From NCBI RefSeq assembly GCF_003258595.1, contig NZ_QHHQ01000001.1, positions 558,001-622,000 on the forward strand: DNA of 64,000 bases. The letters are read 5' to 3'. This document shows positions 10,589 through 25,836 of this stretch, piece by piece. The DNA comes from Acuticoccus sediminis. GTDB lineage: Bacteria > Pseudomonadota > Alphaproteobacteria > Rhizobiales > Amorphaceae. The position numbers and the translations under genes were made by a program. The notes below the pieces were generated by a model. That model did not search any database. It saw only the letters and a program-made list of their open reading frames with translations, and was not told the DNA's origin. Within the stretch, counting starts at the first letter, position 1. Every line of letters begins with the position of its first letter.

Positions 10589-11305
10589 CTACTCCGCCGC
10601 AATCGGCGCGGCACCGTCGGTCTGGGCCGTCAGCTTGGCCCAGATCGAATCCGAGAAGGTCGCCATGAACTCGGCATGGGCGACGCGCTCCGCCTCGGTG
10701 AGGCGCGGCGCGAGCGGCACCGGCCGCGGCTTGTGGCGGACCGGGCCGGACGACTGGTCCGCGCCGCTACCCGACCCGGCGAGGACGAAGGTCGCCTGCC
10801 GGCCGCCGGTGAGCTCCAGGTAGACCTCGGCGAGAAGCTCGGCGTCGAGGAGCGCGCCGTGCTTGGTCCGGCGCGAGGAATCGATGCCGTAGCGCGAGCA
10901 GAGCGCGTCCAGCGAGTTGGCGCCGCCGTGCTTGCGGCGGGCGATCGACAGCGTGTCGACCACCTGATGCGGTGCGATCTCGACCTTGCCGCAGCGCCGC
11001 AGCTCGTGGTTGAGGAAGTTGACGTCGAACGAGGCGTTGTGGGCGACCAGCTTGTCGCTGCCGAGGAAGGCGCAGAAGTCGTCGACGATGTGCGCGAACA
11101 CCGGTTTGTCGGCCAGGAAAGCGCTTGAGATCCCGTGGACGCGGAACGCCTCCTCCGGCATGTCGCGTTCGGGGTTGATGTAGACGTGGAAGACGTTGCC
11201 GGTCGGGATCGCGTTCAGCACCTCGACCGCGCCGATCTCGACGACGCGGTCGCCGGTGGCAGGGTCGAGCCCCGTGGTTTCCGTGTCGAGAACGATCTCG
11301 CGCAA
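10589..11305 (-). CDS. dnaQ: DNA polymerase III epsilon subunit (3'-5' proofreading exonuclease)
   Basis: 238 residues from a TTG start at 11305, chosen because AGGAGG lies six bases upstream and the family N-terminus ([14 protein letters not shown]) starts there; an upstream ATG would add 12 unconserved residues. All DEDDh exonuclease motifs are present: DTETTG (Exo I), [14 protein letters not shown] (Exo II) and [17 protein letters not shown] (Exo III epsilon). After about residue 170 there is a linker and a C-terminal segment that would bind the alpha subunit. It removes misincorporated bases during replication. It is the last gene of the ppsR-aroE-coaE-dnaQ run read away from the putative origin. 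Confidence 0.95.
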
Positions 11306-11992: not shown

Positions 11993-12802
11993 TCATAATG
12001 TGGCGATCACCTTGGACCGGAGCGCCTCGTCGACCTCCGGCGTTTGTCCGAACCATTTCTCAAATCCCACGGTCGCCTGATGGAGCAGCATGCCGAGGCC
12101 GTCGACCGTCGCAAGCCCCCTCGCCTCCGCCTGCTTCAGCAGCGGCGTATTGAGAGGGTTGTAGACGATGTCGGAGACGACCGCGTGCGCCGGGAGCGGC
12201 GAAAGGTCGATCTCGAGCGGCGACGAGCCTTCCATGCCGAGCGAGGTCGTGTTCACCAGGAGGTCGACGTGCGGCAGTTCCCGGGGGATCGCGGACCACA
12301 GGACCGCCTCGCCGCCGACGCGCGCGGCCAGCGTCTCCGCCCGCTGCGCCCGCCGGTTGGCGATCCTGATGGAGACGCCCGCGGTCGCCAGCGCGTCGGT
12401 CACGGCGATGGCAGCGCCGCCGGCACCGATGACGAGCGCGGTCTTCGCACTGCGCCAGGACGGGGCCTGCTCGTCGAGGCTGGCGATGAACCCTGCCCCG
12501 TCGCTCGACGTCGCCCGAAGCTTGCCGTCCTCGCGCCAGATCGTGTTGATCGAGCCGAGGCGCTGGCCGACCGGGTCGAGATCGACGAACTGCGCCGCCG
12601 AGATCTTGTGCGGCACGGTCACGTTGAGGCCGACGAAACCCATCGTGTCGAAGTCCGCGAAGAACTGCTTGAGGCCGTGATCCTGGACCGGCAGCAGCTC
12701 GTAGCGCGCGTTGATCCCGTAGCGCTGGAACCAGTGGGCGAAGATCACGGGCGAGCGGGAATGGGCCACGGGCCAGCCGAGAAGCCCCACACGGCGGGTC
12801 AT
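11993..12802 (-). CDS. aroE: Shikimate dehydrogenase
   Basis: 269 residues. Reduces 3-dehydroshikimate to shikimate with NADPH. Recognisable blocks are [10 protein letters not shown] (shikimate binding), NVTVPHK with the catalytic Lys, the NADP-binding GAGGAAIAV, and NTTSLGM. The ATG at 12802 overlaps the last base of the ppsR stop codon (TGATG), so the two are coupled. In most Rhizobiales a maf gene lies between ppsR and aroE; it is absent here. Confidence 0.95.
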
Positions 12803-13662
12803 CAGAAGTCCTCTGCAAGTCCGCCGGAGCCGTACCGGCGGTCGGATAGGAGCGCGACGATCGCCGCCGCGGTCTCCTCGATGGAGCGGCGCGTCACGTC
12901 GATCAGCGGCCAGCCGTTCTCGGCGCACAGCTTGCGTGCGTAGGTCACCTCCTTGGCGACCGCCTGGCGGTTCACATAGGAGGAGCCCTTGCGCTCCGCG
13001 TTCATCGAGATCAGGCGGTTCTCGCGCAGCGCGACGATGCGCTCCGGGCTCGCGGTCAGGCCGACGATCAGCGCGCGGCGCGCCTCGAACAGGTTGGACG
13101 GCAGCGGCAGGTCGGTGACGATCGGCAGGTTCGTCGCCCGCACGCCGCGATGGGCGAGATAGATGGACGTCGGCGTCTTCGAGGTGCGCGAAACGCCGAT
13201 GAGGACGACGTCGGCCTCGTCGATATCGTCCGGCAGGGCGCCGTCGTCGTGGCGCATGGCGAAGTTCAGCGCCTCGATGCGGCGGAAGTAGCCGGCGTCG
13301 AGCTCGTGCTGCGCGCCGATGCGCGAGGCCTTCTGCACATTGAGATAGGACTGGAACACCGCGACGAGCGGGTCGAGCACGTCGATGCAGGGCAGGCCGA
13401 GCTCGTTGCAGGTCGCCTGAAGGCGCGTGAGAATGTCCGGGTCCACCAGCGTGAACATGACGATGCCGGGGGCATCCTCGATCTCGGCGAGCACGCGGTC
13501 GAGCTGACGGTCCGAACGCACGAGCGGATAGACGTGCTCGATCGCCTCGACATCCTCGTAACGGGCGACGGCGGCGCGAGAGGCCGTCATCAGGGTCTCA
13601 CCGGTCGAGTCCGACACGAGATGCACGTGGACAAATGTGCGTTTTCGGTTCACGGACGCCAT
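12802..13662 (-). CDS. ppsR: PEP synthase / PPDK regulatory protein (DUF299 kinase-pyrophosphorylase)
   Basis: 286 residues. Bifunctional ADP-dependent kinase and phosphate-dependent pyrophosphorylase that switches PEP synthase or pyruvate phosphate dikinase off and on. The family signatures are HLVSDSTGET near the N-terminus and the unusual P-loop GVSRTSKTPTSIYLA followed by RGVRATNLPIV near residue 155. It begins the leftward run ppsR-aroE-coaE-dnaQ and faces hemE across the putative replication origin, the same ppsR(duf299)-ori-hemE arrangement known in Caulobacter. Confidence 0.93.
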   Translation of the reverse strand: MASVNRKRTFVHVHLVSDSTGETLMTASRAAVARYEDVEAIEHVYPLVRSDRQLDRVLAEIEDAPGIVMFTLVDPDILTRLQATCNELGLPCIDVLDPLVAVFQSYLNVQKASRIGAQHELDAGYFRRIEALNFAMRHDDGALPDDIDEADVVLIGVSRTSKTPTSIYLAHRGVRATNLPIVTDLPLPSNLFEARRALIVGLTASPERIVALRENRLISMNAERKGSSYVNRQAVAKEVTYARKLCAENGWPLIDVTRRSIEETAAAIVALLSDRRYGSGGLAEDF

Positions 13663-14050
13663 CTCAATCTGAGGATCACTGTGGAGAACGTCGTGACGGG
13701 TGAGAGGCCCGGGCGCAAGCCTGTGGATTCACCTGTCGGTCATCCACCGATCGATCCCCCGACGGCGGGGCGTGGATAGGGACGGAATATTTAACAGCGG
13801 GTTAATCGACGGATCACATCTTTGCCACGGTGATCCACACCCGGCCGGGTGCGCCCGCAGTGCCAAAAGGCGAGCGAAACTGCCGTGTCCAGCGGTACTT
13901 GCGGAGCGATGCTCCAACGTGTGAACAGTGGCCGCTCGGCAACTGAGGGACGGGACCAGAAACGCGCAAGGCGGTGAAAAGTTCCGTCGTCCCCGCGATC
14001 AGACGCCCAACAGAATCATCAGGTCTTCTAGAATAAAGATTGAAAGATTG
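13663..14050. other. Putative chromosomal replication origin (oriC)
   Basis: A 388-base gene-free stretch between ppsR and hemE, the place of the Caulobacter origin. It contains a TTAA-N7-TTAA CtrA-type site (13791 to 13805), two DnaA-box-like nonamers with one mismatch to the E. coli box (TGTGGAGAA at 13680, TGATCCACA at 13831), weaker ones (TGTGGATTC at 13722, TCATCCACC at 13740, CGTGGATAG at 13771), and two GANTC CcrM methylation sites (13726 and 14013). The segments 13785-13808 and 14010-14050 are clearly less GC-rich than the surroundings. Genes on the two sides are mostly read away from it, and parA, parB and parS lie within 12 kb. Confidence 0.72.
13791..13805. promoter_or_regulatory. 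CtrA-type binding site TTAA-N7-TTAA
   Basis: TTAACAGCGGGTTAA matches the TTAA-N7-TTAA consensus of the alphaproteobacterial cell-cycle regulator CtrA exactly. In Caulobacter CtrA sites in the origin block replication initiation. Here it sits between two clusters of DnaA-box-like sequences. Confidence 0.6.
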
Positions 14051-15088
14051 ATGGACGGTAAATTCGACGGCATACCGATGCTCGTTCAGGTTCTGCGGGG
14101 CGAGCGGGTCGGGCCGGCTCCGGTGTGGTTCATGCGTCAGGCGGGGCGCTACCTCCCGGAGTACCGCGAGCTGCGGAAGAAGGCCTCGTCCTTCCTCGAG
14201 TTCTGCTACACCCCCGACCTCGCCGTCGAAGCGACCCTGCAGCCGATGCGGCGCTACGCGTTCGACGCCTCCATCGTGTTCTCCGACATCCTCGTCGTTC
14301 CCCACGCGCTGGGCCAGGACACTTGGTTCGTCGAGGGCGAGGGTCCGCGACTGGAGCCGCTGAGCGACCCGAGCGGGCTGTCGATGAAGGGGTTCGACGC
14401 CCACCTCACGCCGGTCTACGAGACGATCTCGCGGCTGCGGGAGGCGCTGCCCCCCGAGAAGGCGCTGCTGGGCTTCTGCGGGGCGCCCTGGACGCTGGCG
14501 ACCTACATGGTGGCGGGGAAGGGCGGCGGAGAGCAGTTCCCCGCCCGCAAGGCCGCCGCCCGCGACCCCGAGGCCTTCCAGGCGATCATCGACCTCCTCG
14601 TGGAGGCGTGCTCGCGCCACCTCGTCGCGCAGGCCCGGGCCGGGGCGGACGCGCTGCAGATCTTCGATTCCTGGGCGAGCGCCCTCGACGAGGACGGGTT
14701 TTCCCGATGGTCCATCCAGGCCATCGGGGAAATCGTGAACAAGGTCCGCGCCGAGACGAATGTGCCCATCATCGGCTTCCCGCGGGGGGCCGGGGCGGGC
14801 TACTCCCGGTTCGTGGCGGAGACGGGTGTCGACGCCGTGTCGCTGGATTGGTCGGTGCCGATGGACTTCGCCAGGGAGCTGCAGCAGCGGGTGTGCGTGC
14901 AGGGCAACCTCGACCCGGCGCGGCTGGTGGCGGGCGGGCCGCAGCTCGACGCGGCCGTCGACCGGATCTGCGACGGGCTGGGGGAAGGACCGTTCGTGTT
15001 CAACCTCGGCCACGGCATCTCGCTCGAGACCCCGCCCGAGCACGTGACCCGCGTGATCCGGCGTGTGAAGGAAAGGACCGCGCGATGA
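14051..15088 (+). CDS. hemE: Uroporphyrinogen decarboxylase
   Basis: 345 residues. Decarboxylates the four acetate side chains of uroporphyrinogen III to give coproporphyrinogen III in haem synthesis. The first signature PVWFMRQAGRYLPEYR is intact, as are FSDILVVPHALG, GFCGAPWTLATYM and the C-terminal FNLGHGI. The ATG at 14051 gives the usual MDGK-type start; the frame is open further upstream but that part lies in the putative origin. The stop overlaps the hemJ start (ATGA). Confidence 0.96.
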   Translation: MDGKFDGIPMLVQVLRGERVGPAPVWFMRQAGRYLPEYRELRKKASSFLEFCYTPDLAVEATLQPMRRYAFDASIVFSDILVVPHALGQDTWFVEGEGPRLEPLSDPSGLSMKGFDAHLTPVYETISRLREALPPEKALLGFCGAPWTLATYMVAGKGGGEQFPARKAAARDPEAFQAIIDLLVEACSRHLVAQARAGADALQIFDSWASALDEDGFSRWSIQAIGEIVNKVRAETNVPIIGFPRGAGAGYSRFVAETGVDAVSLDWSVPMDFARELQQRVCVQGNLDPARLVAGGPQLDAAVDRICDGLGEGPFVFNLGHGISLETPPEHVTRVIRRVKERTAR

Positions 15089-20396: not shown

Positions 20397-21680
20397 ATGC
20401 AGGTATCGGGAACAATTGTGGCGCTGTCCTCAGGTCGGCCACCTAGCGCGATCGCGATTATTCGCGCCAGTGGGCCAGCGTCGCTGTCCCTTGCGCAAGC
20501 GTTCGGCGTAACGGCGCTCCAGCCACGCCGCGCCAGCCTTCGCGGGCTGGTGTCTCCGGTGGACGGTGCGCTGATCGACCGCGCGCTCTGCCTCTACTTT
20601 CCCGCACCTCTCACGGCGACGGGAGAGGCGGTGGTGGAGTTCCACTGCCACGGCGGCCCTGCGGTCGTGGAGCGTGTCCTGGCGGACGCGGTGACGGTTC
20701 CCGGCGTGCGCATGGCGGAGCCGGGGGAGTTCACCCTGCGCGCGGTCCTCAACGGGCGGATGGGCATCTCCGACGCCGAGGCGCTGGCGGACGTGATCGA
20801 AGCCCGCACCGAGGCGGAGCGGCGGCGCGCGGTGCGGCTCGCGGAGGGGGCGCTGTCGCGTCTCGTCGCGGGTTGGCGGAGCGAGGTCATCGCGCTGCTC
20901 GCCGACGCAGAGGCGCGCCTCGACTTCGCCGACGAGGGGGACGTGCCGGACGACCTCGCCGATCTCGCCCGCCGTTGCGCGGCCCTGGCGGATGCCGTCG
21001 AACAGGTCCTCGCCGGGAGCGTGGAGGCGGACAAGCTGACGGACGGGTACCATGTCGTCCTCGTCGGTCCGCCCAATGCGGGGAAATCGAGCCTCCTGAA
21101 CGCCCTCACGGCGAGCGAGGCGGCGATCGTGACGCCGGAAGCGGGGACGACGCGCGACGTGGTCTCCGTGACGATCGATCTCGGCGGATATCGCGTCACG
21201 CTGTCCGACACGGCGGGACTGCGGGATGGGGCAAGCGGTGTCGAGGCGATCGGCATCGAGCGGACGCGCCGATGGATCGAGGACGCAGATCTGGTGATTG
21301 CGGTCCGCAGTCCGGACACCGAGGCGGCCGACGTCCCGGCGGATCTGGTGATCCACCACAAGGCCGACATCTCGGGCGGGGAGGGGCTGGCGACATCCGT
21401 CCACGACCCGGCGTCCATCGGGCGCCTGCGCGACCGGCTGGCGGAGATCGTGGCGGAGGCGATGCGCCCGTCCGAGGCGGCGCTGGTGACCCGGGCCCGG
21501 CAGCGTTCCGCGCTCGGCGCATTCGCGGCGCGCGTGCGGGATGCTGCGGACGAGGGTGCGTTGGAGCTCCAGGCCGAGGCATTGCGCTTGGCCTGCCACG
21601 AAATGGCGCGTATGACGGGAGAAATCGGGATCGAGGACGTCCTCGACGACGTCTTCGGCCGCTTCTGCATCGGCAAGTAG
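20397..21680 (+). CDS. mnmE: tRNA modification GTPase MnmE
   Basis: 427 residues. With MnmG forms the enzyme that adds the carboxymethylaminomethyl group to U34 of some tRNAs. The formyl-THF binding N-domain is present ([41 protein letters not shown]), then a G domain with [26 protein letters not shown], and the C-terminal FCIGK with the functional Cys. The G4 motif is HHKAD instead of the usual NKxD (LVIHHKADI), a modest departure. Start ATG at 20397; mnmG follows six bases after the stop. Confidence 0.95.
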
Positions 21681-21685
21681 GGTCA

Positions 21686-23542
21686 ATGTTTCACGTGAAA
21701 CACGACGTAGTCGTCGTCGGCGCAGGGCACGCCGGCTGCGAAGCCGCCGCCGCGTCGGCGCGTCTGGGTGCCCGCACGGCACTCGTCACGCTGTCCGCCG
21801 AGGCGATCGGGCGGCTGTCCTGCAATCCGGCGATGGGCGGGATCGGCAAGGGTCACCTCGTGCGCGAGGTCGACGCGATGGACGGCATCATCGGCCGCAT
21901 TTCGGACCTCTCCGGCATCCAGTTCCGGCTGCTCAACCGGAGCCGCGGCCCGGCCGTGCGCGGGCCAAGGGCGCAGATCGACCGCGCCGCGTATGCCTCG
22001 GCGATGCAGGCCGAGCTTGCTGGCAGCCCCGGTCTCGACATCGTCGAGGGTGAGGTGGAGGACCTGATCGTCGATGCGGGCCGGGTGCGGGGCGTGGTGC
22101 TGCGCGATGGCCGGCGGATCGACGCGGGAGCCGTCGTCCTTACCACCGGCACCTTCCTGGGCGGCGTGATCCACCTGGGGGACAGGACGTGGCCCGCGGG
22201 GCGCATGGGGGAGGCGGCGGCGACCGCCTTGTCCACACGCCTCGGCGCTCTCGGACTGCCGCTGAAGCGCCTCAAGACCGGAACGCCGCCGCGGCTGGCG
22301 GCAAGGTCCATCGACTGGGCGGCCCTGCCCGGGCAGCCGGGCGACGACGACCCGGTGATGCTGAGCGCGATGAGCGATTCTCCCGCTCTGGAGCAGCGCC
22401 CGTGCCACATCTCCGGCACGAACGCGGCGACGCATGAGATCATCCGCGCAAACCTCGGCCGTTCGGCCCTCTTCGGCGGCGGGATCACCGGCGTCGGACC
22501 GCGTTACTGCCCGTCCATCGAGGACAAGGTGGTCCGGTTCGCGGATCGCGACGGCCATCAGGTGTTCCTGGAGCCGGAGGGGCTGACGAGCGACCTCATC
22601 TATCCCAACGGCATCTCCACCTCGCTCCCCGAGGACGTGCAGGTCGCCTTCGTGCGAACGATGGCGGGCTGCGCCCGCGCCGAAATCGTCCAGCCGGGCT
22701 ATGCCATCGAGTATGACGCCGTCGACGCGCGCGCTCTCTCGCCGAGCCTCGAGCTGCGGGCGCTGCCGGGGCTTTTCCTGGCAGGGCAGATCAACGGGAC
22801 GACAGGGTACGAGGAGGCTGCAGGGCAGGGGCTTCTCGCGGGGCTCAACGCCGCACGCCTCGCGGGCGATGGCGAGCCGGTCACGATGGACCGGTCGACG
22901 TCCTACATCGGCGTGATGGTGGACGACCTCGTCACCAACGGTGCGGACGAGCCCTATCGCATGTTCACCTCGCGGGCCGAGAACCGCCTCGCCCTCCGGG
23001 CCGACAACGCGACCGAGCGCCTTACTCCGTGGGCGGATGCCGTCGGCCTCGTCGGACCGGCCCGCCGGGCGCATCATCGCACCGCGGTGGAGGCGAAGGC
23101 CGGCGCGGATGCCACCCTTCGCGCGCTCGCCGTGTCCCCGACGGAGGCGAGCGAGGCCGGCATCAGCGTCAACCGTGATGGACGACGACGGGACGGCTAC
23201 GCCCTGCTTGCCCATCCGGACGGCGGCTGGCACGTGCTCGACCGCTTACGCCCCGAGCTTCGGGCGCTGCCCCGGGACGTGCGCGACAGCATCGAGGCGG
23301 ACGCTCTCTATCGCACCTACACCGACCGCCAGCGCTCCGTCGCGGAGGAGACGCGGGCGGCCGACTCCCTCCCCATCCCCTCGAGCCTTGCGGAGACCCC
23401 CATCCCCGGCCTTTCCAACGAACTGAGGCAGAAGCTTCAGGCCCGGCGACCCGCCACCATCGGCGAGGCGCGACGCATCTCCGGCATGACCCCGGCCGGC
23501 CTCGCCCTCATCGCCGCACACGCCAGACGCGCCATTGCTTGA
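21686..23542 (+). CDS. mnmG: tRNA uridine-5-carboxymethylaminomethyl modification enzyme MnmG (GidA)
   Basis: 618 residues, full length. FAD-binding partner of MnmE. The Rossmann motif VVVGAGHAGCEAAAAS follows the parS-encoded start MFHVKH; SCNPAMGGIGKGHLVREVDAMDG and CPSIEDKVVRF are family signatures, as is GQINGTTGYEEAAGQGL. C-terminal helical domain ends SGMTPAGLALIAAHARR. The stop codon lies inside the start of rsmG. Confidence 0.97.
   Translation: MFHVKHDVVVVGAGHAGCEAAAASARLGARTALVTLSAEAIGRLSCNPAMGGIGKGHLVREVDAMDGIIGRISDLSGIQFRLLNRSRGPAVRGPRAQIDRAAYASAMQAELAGSPGLDIVEGEVEDLIVDAGRVRGVVLRDGRRIDAGAVVLTTGTFLGGVIHLGDRTWPAGRMGEAAATALSTRLGALGLPLKRLKTGTPPRLAARSIDWAALPGQPGDDDPVMLSAMSDSPALEQRPCHISGTNAATHEIIRANLGRSALFGGGITGVGPRYCPSIEDKVVRFADRDGHQVFLEPEGLTSDLIYPNGISTSLPEDVQVAFVRTMAGCARAEIVQPGYAIEYDAVDARALSPSLELRALPGLFLAGQINGTTGYEEAAGQGLLAGLNAARLAGDGEPVTMDRSTSYIGVMVDDLVTNGADEPYRMFTSRAENRLALRADNATERLTPWADAVGLVGPARRAHHRTAVEAKAGADATLRALAVSPTEASEAGISVNRDGRRRDGYALLAHPDGGWHVLDRLRPELRALPRDVRDSIEADALYRTYTDRQRSVAEETRAADSLPIPSSLAETPIPGLSNELRQKLQARRPATIGEARRISGMTPAGLALIAAHARRAIA
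21687..21702. promoter_or_regulatory. parS centromere site (ParB-binding)
   Basis: TGTTTCACGTGAAACA is a perfect 16-base match to the bacterial parS consensus. It overlaps the mnmG start codon so that the protein begins MFHVKH, a coding solution seen in several bacteria. parA and parB are 2.5 kb downstream and the putative origin about 8 kb upstream. No other copy was noticed in the window. Confidence 0.93.
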
Positions 23543-24158
23543 CGAAGCTGAGGAAAACGCACGCGAGACCGTCCGTTCCCGCGTGACGCCGAGCGTCTTT
23601 GACGCGATTGAAAGGTTTGTGGGGGCTTGCTCGCGTTGGGGGCGCGTCTCGAACCTCGTCAGTGCGGCGGACCGAGCCCGGCTGTGGGAGCGCCATGTTC
23701 TGGACAGCCTGCAACTCGTCCCGCTCGCCGAGGGCGCCGGCCCGGTGTGGGTGGACCTTGGATCGGGGGGTGGCTTCCCCGGCATCGTCGTCGCCATCGC
23801 GCGCGAAGGAACGGACATGACCTTGATCGAGGCCAACAGGAAGAAGTCCGCATTCCTGCTTCAGGCCGCCGCCGAGGCGGGGGTGAAGGTGCGCGTGCGG
23901 CCGCAGCGGATCGAGGCCGTCGAGCCCTTCGTCGCCGACGTGGTCTCCGCCCGCGCCCTGGCCTCGCTCGACACGCTGATCCGGCTCGCCGCGCCCTTCT
24001 TCGGACCGGACACGATCGGCCTCTTCCCGAAGGGCAAGGACGCGCCGCTGGAGACCGACACGGCGCACCTGCGACACGATTTCACCGCGAGTCTGATCCC
24101 GAGTCTCACGGAAGATTCATCGATTGTTAGGGTTACCGGTCTGAGGACAGTGTCATGA
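23535..24158 (+). CDS. rsmG: 16S rRNA (guanine-527-N7) methyltransferase RsmG
   Basis: 207 residues from a TTG start that overlaps the mnmG end by eight bases. Methylates G527 of 16S rRNA with S-adenosylmethionine. The SAM motif is VDLGSGGGFPGIVVA, followed by LIEANRKKSAFL and VVSARALASLDTLI. There is no alternative ATG before the fold, so the TTG is required. The stop overlaps the parA start (ATGA), placing rRNA modification and partition genes in one transcript, as is common near origins. Confidence 0.95.
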   Translation: MLDEAEENARETVRSRVTPSVFDAIERFVGACSRWGRVSNLVSAADRARLWERHVLDSLQLVPLAEGAGPVWVDLGSGGGFPGIVVAIAREGTDMTLIEANRKKSAFLLQAAAEAGVKVRVRPQRIEAVEPFVADVVSARALASLDTLIRLAAPFFGPDTIGLFPKGKDAPLETDTAHLRHDFTASLIPSLTEDSSIVRVTGLRTVS

Positions 24159-24961
24159 CGCTCCCTGTACGTCCGCGGGTCATCGCGGTTGCCAATCAGA
24201 AGGGCGGTGTCGGCAAGACGACGACCGCCATCAATCTCGCCACCGCGCTGGCCGCCACCGGCCAGACGACCCTGCTCGTCGACCTCGACCCTCAGGGAAA
24301 CGCCTCGACCGGCCTCGGCGTCGACCCGGACGCCCGCCGGGTGACGACGTACGACGTGCTCACGCGGGTGAACACGCTGCAGGAGGCCATGCACGAGACG
24401 GGCATCCCCGGCCTGTCGCTCGCGCCGGCGACGATGGACCTCCTCTCCATCGACATCGAGCTTTCGGCCCAGTCCGACCGCGCGCGGCGGCTGGCCGACG
24501 CCATCCTCGCGATGTCGCAGACGGACGCCTGTCCGAGCTACGTGGTCATCGACTGCCCGCCATCGCTGACGATGCTGACGGTCAACGCGCTGACGGCGGC
24601 GCACGCGGTCCTGGCGCCGCTGCAGTGCGAGTTCTTCGCCATGGAGGGCCTGTCGCAGCTGCTGCGGACGATTTCCGAGGTGCGCGACAGCGTGAACCCC
24701 GAGCTCGCCATCCACGGCATCGTCCTGACGATGGTGGACGGGCGCAACAACCTCTCGAATCAGGTGGAGGCGGACGTGCGCTCGACCATGGGCGATCTCG
24801 TCTACGCGACGACGATCCCGCGCAATGTCCGCCTGTCCGAGGCGCCGTCGTACGGCAAGCCGGCTCTTTTGTATGACATTAAGTGCGCGGGCAGTCAGGC
24901 GTACCTGCGCCTGGTGTCGGAGCTGATGGATCGTGAACAACGGATGATGGGAGCGGCCTGA
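24155..24961 (+). CDS. parA: Chromosome partitioning ATPase ParA
   Basis: 268 residues. Deviant Walker-A ATPase that binds DNA and, with ParB, moves the origin region toward the poles. The motif ANQKGGVGKTTTAINLA has both signature lysines, and LLVDLDPQGNASTG and VVIDCPPSL are the Walker A' and B. Chromosomal (Soj) length. It overlaps rsmG by four bases and parB by one base. Confidence 0.97.
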   Translation: MTLPVRPRVIAVANQKGGVGKTTTAINLATALAATGQTTLLVDLDPQGNASTGLGVDPDARRVTTYDVLTRVNTLQEAMHETGIPGLSLAPATMDLLSIDIELSAQSDRARRLADAILAMSQTDACPSYVVIDCPPSLTMLTVNALTAAHAVLAPLQCEFFAMEGLSQLLRTISEVRDSVNPELAIHGIVLTMVDGRNNLSNQVEADVRSTMGDLVYATTIPRNVRLSEAPSYGKPALLYDIKCAGSQAYLRLVSELMDREQRMMGAA

Positions 24962-25836
24962 TGGAGCAGGACACCAAGAAGCGCCTCGGCCGCGGCCTGT
25001 CCGCGCTGCTGGGCGACACCGGGCTGCCACCGGCGGCTGGGAACGGCGGCGTCGAGCGCACGCCGACCCGCGTTCCGATCGACCGCCTGGTCCGCAGTGA
25101 CAAGAACCCTCGTTTTACCTTCAGCGACGAGTCGCTGGAGGAGCTCGCTGACTCGATCAAGTCGCGGGGCATCATGCAGCCGCTGCTGGTCCGCCCGACC
25201 GAGGACGGACGCTACATGATCATCGCCGGCGAGCGGCGCTGGCGTGCGGCGCAGAAGGCGGGCCTGCACGAGGTGCCGGTCGTCGTGCGCGAGGCGACCG
25301 AGGGCGAGGCGCTCGAGCTCGCCATCATCGAGAACGTGCAGCGCACCGACCTCAACCCGATCGAAGAGGGGATGGGCTACCAGAAGCTCATCGAGGAGTT
25401 CCAGCACCGGCAGGAAGACCTCGCGAAGATCATCGGCAAGAGCCGCAGCCACGTCGCCAACACGCTGCGTCTTCTGAACCTGCCGGCGTCGATCCGGGCG
25501 AGCGTTGCCGAGGGGGCGCTGACGGCGGGCCATGCCCGCGCGCTGATCGGCACGGCGAACCCGGACGCGGTGGCCGACGAGGTGATCCGTCTCGGCCTCT
25601 CCGTGCGGGCGACCGAGGCGCTGGTGGCAAAGCTCGCCCGAGAGGCCGACGCACCGAGGCCGGAGCGACGGGAGCAGGAGAACGCGGACACGCGCGCGCT
25701 GGTGAACCGCCTTTCCTCCCGCCTCGGCCTCGCCGTCAATCTGAAGCACAAGGACAACGAGAGCGGCGTGCTGACGATCAAGTACACGTCGCTCGACCAG
25801 CTCGACGCCGTCTGCCGGATGCTCGGCGAAAGCTGA
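24961..25836 (+). CDS. parB: Chromosome partitioning protein ParB
   Basis: 291 residues. CTP-hydrolysing DNA clamp that loads at parS. The N-terminal CTPase domain has IIAGERRWRAAQKAGL (the GERR box) and ENVQRTDLNPIEEG, the central helix-turn-helix is KIIGKSRSHVANTLRLLNLP, and a C-terminal dimer domain follows (LTIKYTSLDQLDAVC). A short N-terminal segment KKRLGRGLSALLG is the ParA-stimulating peptide with its Arg. Starts on the parA stop (TGATG). Confidence 0.97.
   Translation: MEQDTKKRLGRGLSALLGDTGLPPAAGNGGVERTPTRVPIDRLVRSDKNPRFTFSDESLEELADSIKSRGIMQPLLVRPTEDGRYMIIAGERRWRAAQKAGLHEVPVVVREATEGEALELAIIENVQRTDLNPIEEGMGYQKLIEEFQHRQEDLAKIIGKSRSHVANTLRLLNLPASIRASVAEGALTAGHARALIGTANPDAVADEVIRLGLSVRATEALVAKLAREADAPRPERREQENADTRALVNRLSSRLGLAVNLKHKDNESGVLTIKYTSLDQLDAVCRMLGES

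Follow-up and report, generated by a model that had tools for sequence, protein, structure and literature searches.

A very probable oriC between ppsR and hemE in Acuticoccus sediminis, and the recurrence of CtrA-type sites in the corresponding gaps of its relatives

The replication origin of Caulobacter crescentus provides the closest described model for the locus considered here. The G-box to which its name is attached has the sequence TGATCCACA (PMC4285127), and GANTC motifs in the same origin have been published (PMC3973325). What is said about CtrA outside Caulobacter depends on the source. An in silico study from 2007 lists CtrA sites in the origins of Wolbachia and its relatives (PMC1914354). 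According to a 2015 review, no alphaproteobacterial origin besides that of Caulobacter shows CtrA sites, with Rickettsia as a possible exception (PMC4468827).

The locus in question is a 388-bp intergenic gap (58.8% GC) at positions 13663..14050 of the window, by which I mean the 64,000-nucleotide stretch C1:558001-622000 that was analysed; on the contig the gap occupies C1:571663-572050. The genome amounts to 7.76 Mb in 44 contigs and is 97.25% complete. Judging from sequence comparison, this gap is very probably oriC, flanked as in Caulobacter and Rickettsia, and I am highly confident that the main chromosome has its DnaA-dependent origin here. The evidence consists of its position, a switch in skew and KOPS, a cluster of DnaA boxes, box positions that recur among relatives, the presence of genes for CtrA, GcrA-family proteins, ParA and ParB, and one perfect parS.

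The gap, its neighbours and the switch of strand polarity

To the left of the gap lies ppsR (12802..13662, minus strand), encoding a kinase-PPPase of the DUF299/COG1806 family (PF03618), and to the right hemE (14051..15088, plus strand; URO-D, PF01208). The ATG at 14051 was picked by reading as the putative hemE start; the frame is open from 13928. The gap thus sits between hemE and the COG1806 gene, the Caulobacter-like setting that had been claimed for it. Leftward, in order, come ppsR, aroE, coaE and a dnaQ-type exonuclease gene, then secB, fxsA, Tim44 and mltA genes; rightward come hemE, rho, an MFS gene, DUF255, mnmE, mnmG, rsmG, parA (24155..24961, plus) and parB (24961..25836, plus). 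The original prediction, that genes read mostly away from the gap, holds for the nearest of them (ppsR through the dnaQ-type gene leftward, hemE and rho rightward); farther out, orientations are mixed. Relatives presumably carry maf between ppsR and aroE; at 12802-12928 there is no space for it, and the listed aroE frame overlaps the end of ppsR. A comparison of the gap with plasmids matched 22 records, and among the 20 matches listed all fell within hemE only.

The arrangement is widespread. Of 61 genomes, 55 gave a ppsR match; the 30 best of these matches were taken as loci, and a second set was formed from 80 of 596 confirmed ppsR matches in contigs. A divergent hemE adjoins ppsR in 29 of the 30 loci and 67 of the 80 (27 and 65 by the strict motif); ten of the 13 misses among the 80 are titled Bradyrhizobium, Bradyrhizobiaceae or Rhodopseudomonas. 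Each gap was taken to run from the PpsR motif to the HemE motif, except that L017, L024 and L027 were ended at 560 bp. Because they are measured motif to motif, the gaps contain some coding ends. Together the 30 and the 65 give 95 gaps, 50.7 kb in all.

If the gap is an origin, strand polarity should switch there. The motif KOPS, GGGNAGGG, which I take to be as in E. coli, served purely as a marker of polarity. Over 400 contiguous kb of C1, cumulative GC skew reaches its minimum at C1:568604 (window position 10604), 3 kb from the gap, and rises after it; a minimum here over the whole chromosome was the check that the original prediction had proposed. KOPS in the same 400 kb number +5/-34 to the left of the gap and +10/-6 to the right. 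The best changepoint falls between C1:570491 and 572516, that is, from 1.2 kb left to 0.5 kb right of the gap, and misplaces 11 of the 55 KOPS. In a set of 40 blocks of C1 (20 contiguous, 20 spread) the counts are +6/-46 left versus +47/-15 right (Fisher p 2e-12), and GC skew by block is negative in 11 of 15 on the left and positive in 18 of 25 on the right (p 0.0014). GC skew alone is shallow: its sum over the 40 uneven blocks has its low point in block 511851-531850, which lies 40-60 kb to the left.

In two genomes of the same genus the contrast between left and right KOPS has the sign seen in A. sediminis (p 8e-6 and 4e-6). The counts are +3/-23 and +18/-6 on the 5.13-Mb contig of G004 (19 of 20 sampled blocks) and +4/-22 and +21/-5 on the 4.95-Mb contig of G007 (17 of 20), after four blocks past the presumed terminus were dropped at limits chosen after viewing the block data; the dropped blocks held +0/-4 in G004 and +0/-3, +1/-1 and +0/-2 in G007. 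Close to the gap the picture is coarser. In the surrounding 400 kb of G004, KOPS number +12/-17 left and +10/-5 right, a switch that is not sharp; the local skew minimum is displaced from the gap by 72 kb and the KOPS changepoint by 12-19 kb, and the coarse sampled minimum is the 2.42-Mb block. The corresponding stretch of G007 gives +7/-28 left and +12/-17 right (within 200 kb on the right), with the skew at its lowest 13 kb from the gap and the KOPS changepoint 56-62 kb away. The polarity switch that belongs to a hemE/COG1806-type oriC is therefore found in A. sediminis, and it is offset in two relatives.

Outside Alphaproteobacteria, an origin near dnaA is common, and this is the one point in favour of placing the origin there in A. 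sediminis as well. A switch near dnaA would have spoken against the gap. The gene lies on contig C5, where KOPS are one-sided, +2/-49 to its left and +1/-20 to its right (+3/-69 over 400 kb), and GC skew drops through dnaA, apart from a single rise at 153-213 kb, and is lowest at C5:443673, close to where the 400-kb stretch ends. In these 400 kb no cluster of DnaA boxes matches that of the gap in strength. An origin near dnaA has next to no chance of being right, and was rejected for want of any polarity switch in the C5 stretch. Another DnaA-family match, an open frame of 447 aa scoring 85.8 bits (G000:C3:842032-844026, partly L002), has the second of the genome's two GcrA-family matches about 1 kb away and is itself some 16 kb short of a C3 contig end.

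Caulobacter parS lies about 8 kb from the origin, and a similar distance had been predicted here. A genome search puts it at 7.6 kb: parS, TGTTTCACGTGAAACA, occupies 21687..21702 at the mnmE-mnmG junction and is the sole perfect copy found, the only other match within two mismatches having two. At that junction mnmE ends at 21680 and the mnmG domain match starts near 21704, so parS perhaps overlaps the start of mnmG.

DnaA boxes and the hemE-side core

Several DnaA-box-like nonamers had been predicted in the gap, two of them with one mismatch. Counting as box-like any nonamer with at most two mismatches to TTATCCACA, there are six, none perfect and two with a single mismatch. These two are TTCTCCACA (13680..13688, minus) and TGATCCACA (13831..13839, plus), the latter identical to the Caulobacter G-box. 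The others, each with two mismatches, are TGATCCTCA (13670..13678, minus), GAATCCACA (13722..13730, minus; overlapping the GANTC at 13726..13730), TCATCCACC (13740..13748, plus) and CTATCCACG (13771..13779, minus). Across eight same-genus gaps the sequence between sites has largely diverged, yet several box offsets recur. Counting the gap of A. sediminis itself, GAATCCACA (offset 98) shares its place with boxes in 6 of the 8, and TGATCCTCA (offset 46), TCATCCACC (offset 116) and CTATCCACG (offset 147) in 5 of 8 each. The offset of TTCTCCACA is found in 3 of 8, the other two being the nearest relatives, and that of the G-box (205-207, within 2 bp) also in 3 of 8. Two of the same-genus relatives are very close to this genome (98% PpsR identity). 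The L009 gap has two boxes at up to two mismatches, and that of L010 has one, at none of the recurring offsets. L010 groups with Hyphomicrobiales rows; L173, titled 'uncultured Rhodobacteraceae', is probably the same contig misnamed, PpsR identity being 82% in both.

How unusual is such a cluster? Boxes were scored 4, 2 or 1 for zero, one or two mismatches over 1.2 Mb, sampled as two stretches of 400 kb plus 20 blocks of 20 kb each. Only windows starting at C1:571444-571670, which cover the gap and the adjoining end of ppsR, come up to the 8 that the gap scores, so the gap has the box cluster that goes with a hemE/COG1806-type oriC. The 30 gaps hold 169 boxes at up to two mismatches against 31 expected.

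Directly before hemE lies an AT-rich stretch (14008..14049), the proposed DNA unwinding element, one of the less GC-rich segments that had been noticed. Of its 42 positions 29 are A/T, as many as in 0.025% of the 42-bp windows in 400 kb; sampled blocks of the contig are 66-72% GC. The stretch overlaps a conserved core. A motif of 39 columns, seeded with the L022 gap and fitted to 90 distinct gaps out of 92, attains a log-likelihood ratio of 893 versus 152-169 for three shuffled sets (same seed; 30 rounds, not 60), and scores at least 15 bits in 67 of the 92. Its order is weak tandem DnaA boxes, an A-rich run (52% A on the plus strand in the 67), AGANTC and a T-rich part. The gap of A. sediminis scores 20 bits, and its boxes there are degenerate: aligned by eye to the 90-gap motif, the tandem positions read TCGTCCCCG then CGATCAGAC (13987..14004, plus), followed by the A-rich run CCAACAGAATCATCAGG (14007..14023, plus), which holds GANTC at 14013-14017. 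This hemE-side core looks like an unwinding element.

My first reading of the core was as a basal unwinding system of the Bacillus type, with DnaA-trios. It has an A-rich run of period three beside tandem DnaA-box positions, and PMC8287927 finds potential basal unwinding sequences in 1755 of 2070 predicted origins. The criterion applied, by eye, was a DnaA box followed within 16 bp by at least three 3'-NAN-5' trios on the stated strand. The box reads ATCCAC on the plus strand, so that the scaffold (trios on the 5' tail, 3'-GAT-5') wants NTN on the plus strand, which by eye shows NAN instead. Because the A-rich run is on the opposite strand to the one implied by the scaffold of PMC8287927, the reading was set aside. 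I consider it rather improbable. The layout is nearer to that of E. coli R1 and its T-rich strand.

The two GANTC sites of the gap (13726 and 14013) are present as predicted, though two in 388 bp is no more than chance, and over the 30 whole gaps GANTC is barely enriched (109 vs 83 expected, the highest of 20 shuffles being 105). Binned by distance in 92 gaps, with no selection by the core motif, GANTC occurs 126 times in 74 gaps at 60-140 bp before the HemE motif, versus 40.7 expected and at most 58 in 200 shuffles; other palindromes number 46-53 in this bin. Bins 140-220 (54 vs 31.8, maximum 47) and 220-300 (63 vs 30.6, maximum 46) also exceed the shuffles. An earlier count of 91 in 54 of 67 gaps came from gaps selected by a motif that already contains part of GANTC. 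In the last 60 bp before the HemE motif, the first hemE codons, GANTC is scarce (5 vs 29 expected, 92 gaps), which codon constraint could explain. In Agrobacterium tumefaciens, depletion or overproduction of CcrM left ori1 duplication without clear change (PMC11514494), a result that speaks against methylation control in that organism.

It might be argued that the gap is merely the promoter region of ppsR and hemE, with sites for transcription factors (promoters, too, are places where DnaA, CtrA and GcrA/CcrM act), and that the origin lies elsewhere. The two genes are divergent, the AT-rich stretch with its GANTC runs up to the start codon of hemE, and a GANTC peak 60-140 bp before the HemE motif (92 gaps) is also what GcrA-dependent promoters would produce. 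Against this stand the switch in skew and KOPS, the lone perfect parS and the strongest DnaA-box cluster in the sampled genome, and dnaA is excluded as the alternative origin. I regard the promoter explanation as very improbable by itself, while a hemE promoter within an origin is quite possible.

CtrA-type sites here and among relatives

Taking the gap, then, as the origin, its candidate CtrA site is TTAACAGCGGGTTAA (13791..13805), an exact match to the predicted TTAA-N7-TTAA. It is the sole such match in the window and one of 8 in the 7.76-Mb genome. A reversed control pattern occurs 16 times, so TTAA-N7-TTAA is not enriched genome-wide. The best match in the genome to the C. crescentus CtrA sequence used as query is C6:233670-234272, 81% identical overall and fully identical over residues 147-201, part of the DNA-binding domain; 45 weaker matches are by their scores other response regulators.

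Could the site be a chance match, with CtrA making no contact at this origin? The exact site occurs in none of the nine same-family relatives' gaps, hence in one of ten for the family, and gaps are less GC-rich than genes. On the other side, an even spread of 8 sites over 7.76 Mb would put about 0.0004 in 388 bp. The 95 gaps contain 29 exact sites in 27 gaps, mostly Hyphomicrobiales, where 200 shuffles have a mean of 0.42 and a maximum of 3; flanks totalling 428 kb contain 2. The spacing is almost solely 7: spacers of 5, 6, 8, 9 and 10 yield 1, 2, 0, 0 and 0 sites. Of the two controls the spacers are to be preferred, since most of the flanking DNA is coding. Add to this the identity of the resident CtrA to its Caulobacter counterpart over residues 147-201, and chance becomes a doubtful account of the site, though one to be kept in mind.

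The gaps with the site are scattered across a PpsR tree of 92 rows (L024, L027 and L173 excluded). The site as a label requires 19 changes, at least 14 of them forced by well-supported branches; shuffled labels require 23.5 on average, and 5 of 500 shuffles go as low as 19. Neither an exact site nor an excess at one mismatch (5 vs 3.6 expected) is seen in a clade of 26 rows that includes Rhizobium, Mesorhizobium and Shinella; the Nitratireductor row L249, just outside it, carries a site. In the family of A. sediminis, sites with up to one mismatch number 6 in 5 gaps versus 0.1 expected. On the Caulobacter side the site is present in L241, L248 and L250, and absent from L246 and the Maricaulis row L234. 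The distribution suggests that a CtrA-type site at the origin has been gained or lost many times among these relatives.

I am inclined, if only slightly, to go further. Direct control of the origin by CtrA may have been gained and lost repeatedly across Hyphomicrobiales (Methylobacterium, Enterovirga, Alsobacter, Stappia, Pleomorphomonas, Lutibaculum, one Nitratireductor and the present genome) and be missing from the Rhizobium/Mesorhizobium/Shinella clade, in which case it would not be peculiar to Caulobacter and a few intracellular lineages. The concentration of GANTC in the presumed unwinding element, parallel to GATC in E. coli oriC, may in the same way tie opening to methylation by CcrM.

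As an origin the gap is ordinary, lying where the known alphaproteobacterial pattern places it, and this much is well supported. Its interest lies in the recurrent CtrA-type site; the conserved GANTC-bearing core likewise goes beyond the original prediction. Sites in 27 of 95 gaps contrast with the restriction of CtrA sites to Caulobacter, Rickettsia possibly apart, in the 2015 review (PMC4468827). Among the titles and abstracts listed in a search that covered mainly the open literature, none reports CtrA sites in Hyphomicrobiales origins, which does not imply novelty. With the site in so many gaps, mostly of Hyphomicrobiales, how often CtrA became a brake on replication is a question that can be tested in, for example, Methylobacterium.

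A model and its counterparts in described origins

I propose that the binding of DnaA and CtrA, the site of opening and the order of events are as follows. DnaA would load onto the array of weak boxes at 13670-13839, which includes one G-box of the Caulobacter type, and spread as far as the degenerate tandem pair at 13987-14004, where it would begin to open the AT-rich DNA at 14008-14049, directly before hemE. Phosphorylated CtrA could bind at 13791-13805, 25 bp from the G-box, and so hold back initiation. ParB, bound to parS 7.6 kb away, would then move the new origin.

Cori of C. crescentus resembles this gap in its hemE and COG1806 flanks, its G-box TGATCCACA, its TTAA-N7-TTAA and an AT content above the level of the genome (PMC1914354, PMC4285127 and PMC4468827). 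It differs in having five CtrA-type sites versus one here, and the gap has its own spacing of boxes and no IHF match at up to one mismatch to the consensus used, which is a form other than that of PMC1914354. The predicted origins of Rickettsia and Wolbachia also adjoin hemE and have DnaA- and CtrA-type sites (PMC1914354); unlike the present gap they are far more AT-rich, and that of Wolbachia has no COG1806 side. Hyphomonas neptunium is comparable by description, with CtrA binding beside the origin by ChIP-seq (PMC7200025). E. coli oriC, read in reverse, shares with the core a TTATCCACA box, a short spacer and an A-rich strand leading into AT-rich DNA with methylation sites. Those sites are GATC in E. 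coli and GANTC here, and the boxes of the present core are degenerate; the likeness is one judged by eye and does not imply homology.
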